Source: an uncultured Pelagibacteraceae bacterium (GTDB lineage: Bacteria; Pseudomonadota; Alphaproteobacteria; Pelagibacterales; Pelagibacteraceae). Taken from it: 64,000 nucleotides of DNA. The translations under genes and the position numbers were made by a program. The stretch is taken from assembly GCA_902613855.1 (NCBI GenBank), contig CACMIX010000003.1:106280-170279 (forward strand), read 5' to 3'. This document shows, piece by piece, positions 62,125 through 64,000 of the stretch; position 1 is the stretch's first letter, and every line of letters starts with the position of its first letter. The notes below the pieces were generated by a model. That model saw only the letters and a list, made by a program, of their open reading frames with translations, did not search any database and was not told where the DNA came from.

Positions 62125-62150
62125 CTTGCGAGGATGTGAATCCCCGCAAG
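62125..62150 (-). terminator. Hairpin downstream of hsp20, fully paired only in minus-strand RNA
   Basis: CTTGCGAGGAT-GTGA-ATCCCCGCAAG on +; the single mismatch becomes G.U in the minus transcript. Confidence 0.65.
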
Positions 62151-62161
62151 CAAGGTTAAAC

Positions 62162-62608
62162 TTATTTAATTTCTATAAGTTTTTTCTTTTTATGTTCTGG
62201 AATAATTCTTTCACATAATATTGTTAAAAGACCATCCTTAAGCTCAGCACCATTTACTTTTACGTCATCAGCAATAGTGAATGATCTTGCAAATTGTCTT
62301 TGAGAAATACCTTTATGAATAATTTCTCCATCAACATCACCGTTCTCAGATTTATTAACTTGTTTAGTTCTAACTGTTAATAAATTATCCTCAAACTCAA
62401 CCTCAACATCTTTCTTATTAAAGCCAGCTAATGCAACTTCAATTGCATAGTTGTCCTTACCTGTTTTTCTAATGTTATAAGGTGGGTAATTTGACTGCAT
62501 TGTCAAATTTCCATTTCCCAACATATTCTCAAATTGATCAAACATATCGTCAAAACCAATTGAAAACGGTCTAAGTGAGTTAAATATAGATAGATCCTTA
62601 CTTGTCAT
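62162..62608 (-). CDS. Small heat shock protein Hsp20/IbpA family
   Basis: GFDDMFDQFENMLG; YAIEVALAGFNKKDVEVEFEDNLLTV alpha-crystallin domain. Confidence 0.95.
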   Translation of the reverse strand: MTSKDLSIFNSLRPFSIGFDDMFDQFENMLGNGNLTMQSNYPPYNIRKTGKDNYAIEVALAGFNKKDVEVEFEDNLLTVRTKQVNKSENGDVDGEIIHKGISQRQFARSFTIADDVKVNGAELKDGLLTILCERIIPEHKKKKLIEIK

Positions 62609-62612
62609 AATA

Positions 62613-62664
62613 TCCTCCTTTGTTAAGCAAGTTTATATTTAGTAAGCCCCATTAGGCGACTTAC
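62613..62664 (-). promoter_or_regulatory. Structured hsp20 5'UTR: 5' hairpin plus candidate ROSE-like RNA thermometer
   Basis: Minus strand: GUAAGUCGCC-UAAU-GGGGCUUAC hairpin (62642-62664), then UUGCU-UAACAA-AGGAG covering the Shine-Dalgarno (62613-62630). Confidence 0.5.
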
Positions 62665-62671
62665 AAACACT

Positions 62672-62699
62672 ATTTAGTAACTACTTTTAATATTTCAAG
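62672..62699 (-). promoter_or_regulatory. Heat-shock (RpoH-like) promoter for hsp20: CTTG-N17-ACTAAAT
   Basis: Minus-strand CTTGAAA at 62693-62699 and ACTAAAT at 62672-62678; spacing matches the alphaproteobacterial RpoH pattern CTTG-N17-CYTATNT. Confidence 0.6.
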
Positions 62700-62708
62700 A
62701 TTAAAAAA

Positions 62709-64000
62709 TTAAATTTTTTTTGTAATTTTTAATGCAAACGCATAGTCGATGGCAATTTCTTCAATGGCACCATCTCGACCAGATTTACCACCATGACCTG
62801 CATTCATTTCAGTTTTTAATAAAAGCAAATTATTGTCAGTTTTATACTCTCTTAATTTTGCAGTAAATTTTGCAGGCTCATCAAATAGAACCCGGTTATC
62901 GCTAAGGCTTGTTGTTATTAAAATGTGTGGATAATCTTTTTTTTTTATATTGTTGTATGGAGCATAGGAAAAAATATAATCGAAATGCTCCTTGTTTTCT
63001 TTTGCGTTTCCAAATTCATCAAACTCTCCAACTGTTAAAGGTAAAGAATGATCAAGATTTGTTGTTAAAGAGTCAACAAAAGGCACAGCCATTATAATTC
63101 CTAAAAATAATTCTGGAGATTGATTTACAACTACACCCATAAGCAATCCACCTGCTGATCCACCCATACCAATGATTTTACCTTTAGAGGTATAGTTATT
63201 TTCTATTAAATATTTAGCAGCATGAATATAATCTTCAAAAGTATTTTTTTTATTTGTTAACTTTCCTTCTTTCCACCACTTCATTCCTTTTTCCATGCCC
63301 CCTCTTATATGGGCAGTTGCCCAAATTATATCTCTATCTATTAAACTTAATTTTGTTGAGGAAAAACTTGGGCTCATAGAGCTTCCATAAGATCCGTAAC
63401 CATAAAGGAGTAAATTGGCAGACCCGTCTAACTTCGTTTTTTTATGACGCGTAATTGTTAATGGCACTAATCTTCCATCGTGCGATTTGAACTCCACTCT
63501 TTCCACAATATAATTTTCTGGATTGTGTCCTGATGGAATTTCTTGTTCTTTAACAAGCTCTTTAGATTTATTCGATAAATTAAATCTATAAACTCTTGAA
63601 GGCGTTTTAGGCGAAGAATATCCAAGATAAACCTCATCGGTATCTCTATTTCTTTGAGTGAGAGAAACTCCTGGTACATATATCGTTTCGTCTGAAAATA
63701 TTAATTCTTGCTCTATATTTGTAGAAATATTTCTAACAAATAATTTATCTAGAGCATTAGACGTTTCAGATCGAATGATCCAATTTTTTAGAAAAGTTAT
63801 GCCTCCTATTAAAACTTCTTTTTTTGATAAAATAAAAGGTTTCCAGTCTTGTTTTTCTAAATTATCTGTAATGTCAATTTTAAAATCTTCTGCATTTTTG
63901 TTTGTATGATTATAAAATTTTCCATCCCATGAATTTGTTGAATATAGAACACCTTTTTCTCTTTTCATTATTAGCTTTGGAGAAGGGTCTGCCTCATTTA
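62709..64000 (-). CDS. ptrB: Oligopeptidase B (S9A prolyl oligopeptidase family), truncated by window edge
   Basis: GMGGSAGGLLMGVVVNQSPELF catalytic Ser; frame continues upstream of the listed Met (NEADPSPKLI-MKREKGVLYS) to the window end. Confidence 0.92.
   Translation of the reverse strand, partial: NEADPSPKLIMKREKGVLYSTNSWDGKFYNHTNKNAEDFKIDITDNLEKQDWKPFILSKKEVLIGGITFLKNWIIRSETSNALDKLFVRNISTNIEQELIFSDETIYVPGVSLTQRNRDTDEVYLGYSSPKTPSRVYRFNLSNKSKELVKEQEIPSGHNPENYIVERVEFKSHDGRLVPLTITRHKKTKLDGSANLLLYGYGSYGSSMSPSFSSTKLSLIDRDIIWATAHIRGGMEKGMKWWKEGKLTNKKNTFEDYIHAAKYLIENNYTSKGKIIGMGGSAGGLLMGVVVNQSPELFLGIIMAVPFVDSLTTNLDHSLPLTVGEFDEFGNAKENKEHFDYIFSYAPYNNIKKKDYPHILITTSLSDNRVLFDEPAKFTAKLREYKTDNNLLLLKTEMNAGHGGKSGRDGAIEEIAIDYAFALKITKKI

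Follow-up and report, generated by a model that had tools for sequence, protein, structure and literature searches.

A probable minimal ROSE-like RNA thermometer in the hsp20 leader of SAR11 bacteria, shared with hsp20 genes of marine phages

ROSE-like RNA thermometers are known in alpha- and gammaproteobacteria, where they span 60 to over 100 nt and form two to four stem-loops (PMC10474464). A two-hairpin element of this type occupies the 61-62 nt 5'UTR of Pseudomonas ibpA (PMC3669281). From PMC11182007 and PMC3669281 we drew up a list of ROSE-like features for comparison: a place in the 5'UTR of a heat-shock gene, two to four hairpins, a U(U/C)GCU motif in the last hairpin that imperfectly pairs with the Shine-Dalgarno (SD) sequence, a G that is bulged or mismatched where it faces the SD, an SD that is closed in the cold and opens on warming, and translation that depends on temperature. 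In phages, a 2024 paper counts thermometers on lambda cIII, on SPbeta blyA and on a sigma-70 gene of a gut Caudoviricetes; the last two are fourU-type and none of the three is described as ROSE-like (PMC11182007). Within SAR11, Stav et al. 2019 mention 'a possible RNA thermometer' in strain HIMB5, its gene being unnamed in the main text (PMC6429828), and this may be the hsp20 leader described here. Neither hsp20 nor heat shock is mentioned in Meyer et al. 2009 (PMC2704228).

Here we analyse the leader of a SAR11 hsp20 gene, very probably a minimal ROSE-like RNA thermometer with two hairpins that is transcribed from a sigma-32-type promoter; hsp20 genes of marine phages share the element. Because ROSE-like elements, including the two-hairpin ones of Pseudomonas, have already been described, the SAR11 leader is a reduced form of a known type. 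SAR11 are among the most abundant marine bacteria and are considered very poor in regulators. A ~55-nt heat sensor before their sole hsp20 would be a directly testable case of how these cells sense warming.

The leader lies on the minus strand of the window (the whole stretch of DNA analysed, 64,000 nucleotides). It is bounded by a gene that ends at 62709 and by hsp20, which is present in a single copy in this 1.21-Mb SAR11 (Pelagibacter-like) genome, whose closest named relatives belong to the Pelagibacteraceae. The hsp20 start stands 3' of the element, which would thus lie in the 5'UTR of a heat-shock gene if the transcript begins where predicted. For comparison, hsp20 leaders were gathered from 111 loci of near relatives and from about 90 more genomes at genus, family and order level. 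The features of the locus are collected in Table 1.

Table 1. Features of the hsp20 locus, in window coordinates
Feature	Position	Strand	Details and basis
-35-like element CTTGAAA, sigma-32 (RpoH)-type	62693..62699	minus	sequence; conserved TTGAA
-10-like element ACTAAAT	62672..62678	minus	CCCATAT in most relatives
Hairpin I, GUAAGUC-G-CC UAAU GG-GGCUUAC	62642..62664	minus	9 bp; bulged G at 62657; as written on the minus strand, GUAAGUCgCC-UAAU-GGGGCUUAC (62664-62642)
Putative anti-SD strand CUUGCUU	62625..62631	minus	ROSE motif U(U/C)GCU at 62630-62626; conservation and Rfam ROSE_3/ROSE alignment
Shine-Dalgarno strand AAGGAGG	62614..62620	minus	predicted to pair with CUUGCUU across loop AACA
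AAGUAAG across codons 2-5, possible alternative partner of CUUGCUU	62597..62603	minus	Pelagibacteraceae-specific; folding and codon invariance
hsp20 (small heat-shock protein), 148 aa	62162..62608	minus	ATG 62608-62606; Pfam PF00011, 58.6 bits
Terminator-like stem after hsp20	62125..62150	minus	CUUGCGGGGAU...AUCCUCGCAAG hairpin, then UUUGAUUU; sequence reading

The original prediction read three things in this leader: an RpoH-like promoter (CTTGAAA...ACTAAAT), a 9-bp hairpin with one bulged G, and a UUGCU standing 6 nt before AGGAG. All three are in place, and the relatives bear each of them out. TTGAA is present in 212 of 216 SAR11 leaders, and a pair of -35- and -10-like boxes was found in 209 of the 216, with an identical spacing of 15 nt in 205 of these 209. 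The commonest form is CTTGAAA..CCCATAT, to which the window's own -10 element is a weak match (CCCATNT-like box). RpoH itself is encoded in the genome (359 bits). Both boxes with their fixed spacing and the RpoH gene thus support a sigma-32-type promoter, from which the transcript is predicted to start at the 5' end of hairpin I or a few nucleotides before it. From hairpin I to the AUG, SAR11 leaders measure 50-59 nt.

Hairpin I is strongly supported by covariation. In an alignment of 46 diverse leaders from the SAR11 family (A1), 97% of its pairs are kept and two-sided compensatory changes occur in six of eight stem pairs (for example GUUGGUC..GGCUAAC, GUAUGUC..GGCAUAC and GCAAGUC..GGCUUGC). 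RNAalifold recovers the hairpin unaided, and none of 500 shuffles reached the whole-structure measures of A1; the compensatory changes and the shuffles together rule out a chance origin. We also considered a switch in which the 5' arm of hairpin I would pair with ACUUGC, which was dropped because hairpin I covaries (as in GUUGGUC..GGCUAAC) while ACUUGC stays unchanged. The apex, UYGCC..GGGR with the bulged G, is nearly invariant. Such an apex would suit a protein binding site, and Hsp20 might by analogy bind the hairpins and repress its own translation until titrated by aggregates, temperature then acting more through the protein than through melting. E. coli IbpA does repress itself by way of the ibpA 5'UTR, and alphaproteobacterial IbpA is reported to conserve the critical residues (PMC10474464). 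We give autoregulation in place of melting rather little credence; it is compatible with a thermometer in any case, E. coli ibpA having both.

The second hairpin would be formed by the UUGCU at 62630-62626 and, 6 nt further on, the AGGAG at 62619-62615, with G62628 facing G62617 or, in the other register, bulged. UUGCU (183 cases) or UCGCU (2 cases) occurs in all 185 unique SAR11 leader-plus-start sequences, so that motif, complementarity to the SD and the odd G all recur as in ROSE-like elements, judged from sequence. Conservation of UYGCU is at least that of the SD, while the spacers are free to differ in both length and sequence and the loop variants stay symmetric (CUUGCUUAAUAUUAAGGAGG in L020, CUUGCUUUACAAAGGAGG in L007, CCUUGCUAACAAAGGAGG in many leaders). 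A second SAR11 family (L219-L233) reads UUAAUCGCUUAAGGAGGAUUAA, with UCGCU again. Two-sided changes are absent from hairpin II in A1, since one of its strands is the SD and cannot vary; covariation across related leaders, proposed as a check in the original prediction, is thus found for hairpin I, and for hairpin II the motif is conserved instead. The leader would then have two hairpins, hairpin I by covariation and hairpin II by conservation and covariance-model alignment. In the second SAR11 family the 100 nt before hsp20 keep UCGCU and the SD in a longer leader, whose upstream hairpins are different and additional (for example GCCUAGCUUAAUUUAAGUAGGC).

The argument for hairpin II is drawn from conservation and homology and not from the one sequence. 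The bare pattern TTGCTN{2,12}AGGAG matches at 33 places in the genome and at four in the window (1.3 expected), and is too common to be used alone as evidence. SD occlusion in the single window sequence is not unusual (72 of 300 shuffles were as low), and its free energy gives no support (z -1.96 with the coding start). An ordinary leader would accommodate several of these observations: sigma-32 would be the sole regulation, as the strongly conserved promoter would allow, hairpin I would only protect the 5' end of the mRNA, 5'-terminal hairpins being a common stabiliser, and UUGCU would be kept for some other reason, TTGCT..AGGAG arising by chance elsewhere. We regard this as highly improbable, given that UYGCU beside the SD is kept in SAR11, in other alphaproteobacteria and in phages while its flanks vary, that both hairpins fit ROSE models together, and that phages retain both hairpins without the sigma-32 promoter.

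Predicted folding depends on how much coding sequence is included. The 5'UTR alone folds into both hairpins, with a probability of anti-SD:SD pairing of about 0.9. When seven codons are included, the anti-SD prefers codons 3-5 (probability about 0.8-0.9; median 0.89 at 15 C) and the predicted ensemble leaves the SD open at about 0.75. The proposed pairing across the SD is supported by its conserved complement and challenged by the folding with the first codons. One way to read this is a bistable leader, in which CUUGCUU would switch between the SD and codons 3-5 (AAGUAAG), the second helix being the main low-temperature state in Pelagibacteraceae and holding SD and AUG in one loop, similar to cyanobacterial hsp17. 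Besides dominating the predicted ensemble, this helix involves codons 3-4 (AGT AAG) that are invariant in 99 of 99 unique hsp20 coding sequences, although elsewhere in the gene AAG encodes 23% of the lysines and AGT 11% of the serines; leaders of g4 and g2 (L210, L211) retain the helix despite different N-termini. However, genus g3 (L213, L214), L192, the second SAR11 family and the leaders of other alphaproteobacteria and of phages show this helix weakly or not at all and retain UYGCU:SD; the helix shows no compensatory changes; and conservation of 5' codons has other causes, 9 of 134 conserved hsp20 codons lacking synonymous variation. A bistable leader therefore seems unlikely to us. Since the alternative helix is limited to part of SAR11, the SD hairpin is taken as the ancestral and general structure, with the alternative helix as a possible second layer in the folding model. 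Folding from 4 to 45 C predicts no melting of the leader, but the same is true of the ROSE_3 consensus, a positive control built on proven elements, and temperature-series folding was therefore discarded as a test.

Homology supports the ROSE-type reading of the original prediction well, and it is from homology that we infer the function. Among 4,227 Rfam families, the best match to the 75-nt window leader is ROSE_3 (21.1 bits, E 0.0072) and the second is rhizobial ROSE (21.4 bits, E 0.092); both alignments run end to end through the leader, and all other Rfam matches have E values of at least 2.3. The leader of L210, from another SAR11 genus, matches ROSE_3 with 23 bits (E 0.0031). The window scores lie below the gathering cut-offs (43 bits for ROSE_3, RF02523, and 45 bits for ROSE, RF00435) and the leader is therefore not filed under either family. 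ROSE matches in 14 of 240 alphaproteobacterial genomes are also under the RF00435 cut-off. A whole-genome ROSE_3 search did not have the leader among the matches listed; it was probably lost at the loose first stage, the focused scan having matched it. A canonical ROSE leader, L304, carries a hairpin I (GCGGUCGCC-AUAAC-GGGGCCGC; GCGGUCGCCAUAACGGGGCCGC) that is nearly identical to that of SAR11.

R1, a covariance model of the SAR11 leaders that ignores the identity of the downstream gene and whose last ~21 positions span the SAR11 start codons, captures the element that the Rfam cut-offs miss. R1 has one match in its own genome (E 1.4e-19) and also matches hsp20 starts in the second SAR11 family. 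Across 289 alphaproteobacterial genomes, 18 matches fall outside SAR11 at E <= 0.1, with 12 on hsp20, two on rpoH, one on dnaK and three unrelated (genes assigned by blast and ORF reading, rpoH and dnaK confirmed by NCBIfam). The canonical ROSE leader L300 is found at 18.2 bits. Altogether, the Rfam ranking, the compensatory changes in hairpin I with its nearly canonical sequence, the order-wide UYGCU opposite the SD and the matches on heat-shock leaders elsewhere in the class argue for a ROSE-type element.

The R1 matches on two rpoH leaders (L266, L271) and one dnaK leader (L276) of other alphaproteobacteria have E values of 0.0014-0.04, and in the bacteria with the rpoH matches the heat-shock sigma factor itself may be under the control of compact ROSE-like elements. 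A thermometer on SAR11 rpoH was considered and rejected: nothing comparable lies upstream of the gene, the hsp20 leader being the sole R1 match in the genome. In another alphaproteobacterium (G346), a two-hairpin ROSE match of 73 nt (L308) is followed by a 62-aa ORF, with no obvious hsp20.

Compared with the short ROSE of Pseudomonas ibpA (ROSE_3; PMC3669281), the SAR11 leader shares two hairpins, the position in the 5'UTR of a small heat-shock gene, the sigma-32 promoter, U(U/C)GCU facing the SD with an odd G, a bulged-G hairpin I and a full-length covariance-model alignment. It differs in being shorter (50-59 nt from hairpin I to AUG, against a 5'UTR of 61-62 nt), far more A+T-rich, distinct in the sequence of its loop and of hairpin I, and under the gathering cut-off. 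The leader had been called unusually short for a two-hairpin thermometer, a description that the Pseudomonas precedent tempers, although 50-59 nt does stand at the known lower limit or slightly under it. With rhizobial ROSE, which belongs to the same gene family and bacterial class, it has in common the nearly identical hairpin I (GUCGCC-N-UAA-N-GGGGC) and a terminal UUGCU:SD hairpin; in contrast, it lacks the middle hairpin(s) (about 30 nt), its SD hairpin has a reduced outer stem and the SD pairing register is shifted by one. From its sequence, the SAR11 element looks like canonical ROSE minus its middle hairpin(s). The hsp17 thermometer of Synechocystis (PMC4477652) is likewise a very short small-heat-shock leader and is similar to the alternative helix around SD and AUG, but it is a single hairpin without UYGCU, and an hsp17-like form is not supported as the class-wide structure.

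In the ROSE-like thermometer that we favour, a sigma-32-type transcript would begin at hairpin I, itself expected to be thermostable, with its bulged G as in canonical ROSE. Hairpin II would pair the SD (AAGGAGG) with CUUGCUU, leaving one guanine unpaired or facing another G, and, within the cell, keep the start site closed at normal sea temperatures. Heat would then melt this weak helix and admit the ribosome, with an effect on the level of Hsp20.

The same anatomy is found on phage hsp20 genes. IMG/VR was searched with the window's Hsp20, yielding 68 viral loci of which 66 were tested; R1 matches 62 of the 66 (59 at E<=0.01), each solely at the hsp20 start. A second IMG/VR scan, this time starting from a cyanophage Hsp20, yielded 77 testable loci, and R1 matches every one (46 at E <= 0.01). 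In INPHARED, 508 phage records, mostly cyanophages, hold an Hsp20 relative. We examined 19, including the pelagiphages HTVC008M, Mosig, HTVC103P and HTVC115P, the methylophage Melnitz-3 and the cyanophages Syn33, P-SSM4, syn9, Syn19, S-RIM32, S-CAM7 and MED4-213. R1 matches the hsp20 start in 17 of the 19 (E <= 1; 12 at E <= 0.01), with two weak matches elsewhere. In an anchor-based count, which picks the best-pairing hairpin and is thus biased towards pairing, and from which a Vibrio phage was excluded, 17 of 17 phage leaders have the bulged-G hairpin I and 16 of 17 have UYGCU. The hsp20 leader of that one Vibrio phage, among the 19 records, lacks the two-hairpin anatomy. UCGCU is present in 55 of 55 unique leaders of the second scan, mostly after GGUUGCC-UUCG-GGGACC or a covarying form of it (GAUUGCC..GGGAUC, GAAUGCC..GGGUUC, GGAUGCC..GGGUCC, UGUCGCC..GGGACA). 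Rfam ROSE_3 also detects the leaders of Melnitz-3 (34.1 bits, E 0.002) and MED4-213 (29.2 bits, E 0.034) in a 40-kb scan. Phage hsp20 starts with ROSE-like leaders are L309-L374 and L396-L475 (IMG/VR) and L377-L394 (INPHARED).

Where the sigma-32 promoter would be, the phage leaders carry a TAWATA box of the T4 late type, the T4 late promoter being of the form TATAAAT (PMC3037559). In 51 of 57 unique cyanophage leaders this box ends 8-9 nt upstream of the bulged G; among shuffled segments, 5% contain a TAWATA box at any position. In an Hsp20 tree the main pelagiphage clade lies near SAR11 (weak support) and most cyanophage sequences form a separate deep clade. The element accompanies hsp20 in phages of SAR11, methylotrophs and cyanobacteria, a T4-type late-promoter box replacing the sigma-32 promoter. 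We think it more likely than not that ROSE-like thermometers are a standing part of hsp20 in marine T4-like and other phages of these hosts, driven by late promoters, so that late phage Hsp20 would be temperature-gated independently of the host sigma-32.

The known phage thermometers, on lambda cIII, blyA and the sigma-70 gene, likewise sit on phage genes, but they are single cases and not ROSE-like. In contrast, hsp20 is found in hundreds of marine phages and belongs to the core genes of T4-like cyanophages (PMC3037559), and all named records examined show the two-hairpin ROSE-like anatomy, the Vibrio phage excepted. No paper describing thermometers in the hsp20 leaders of cyanophages or pelagiphages was found in the literature searched (most subscription journals lie outside it), and a ROSE-like element on phage hsp20 has apparently not been described before. 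Such an element on a cyanophage core gene and in pelagiphages would extend the three phage thermometers counted so far (PMC11182007) by a new class and make the outcome of infection in warming water testable at one RNA hairpin; we consider this phage extension the part worth following.

Variants of the leader also occur in phages. Viral leaders L347, L349, L352, L353, L358 and L366-L374 read AACUGUCUAACAAGGAGGUU, with UGUCU, an SD complement with one mismatch, in place of UYGCU. A similar two-hairpin leader precedes hsp20 in the Pseudomonas jumbo phage Ettore (L394, 403-474), where UUGCG stands for UUGCU and the R1 match is weak (13.5 bits). On one viral contig (L340, 1507-1557), a glutamine riboswitch (RF01739, 64.1 bits, E 4.6e-12) lies just downstream of hsp20.
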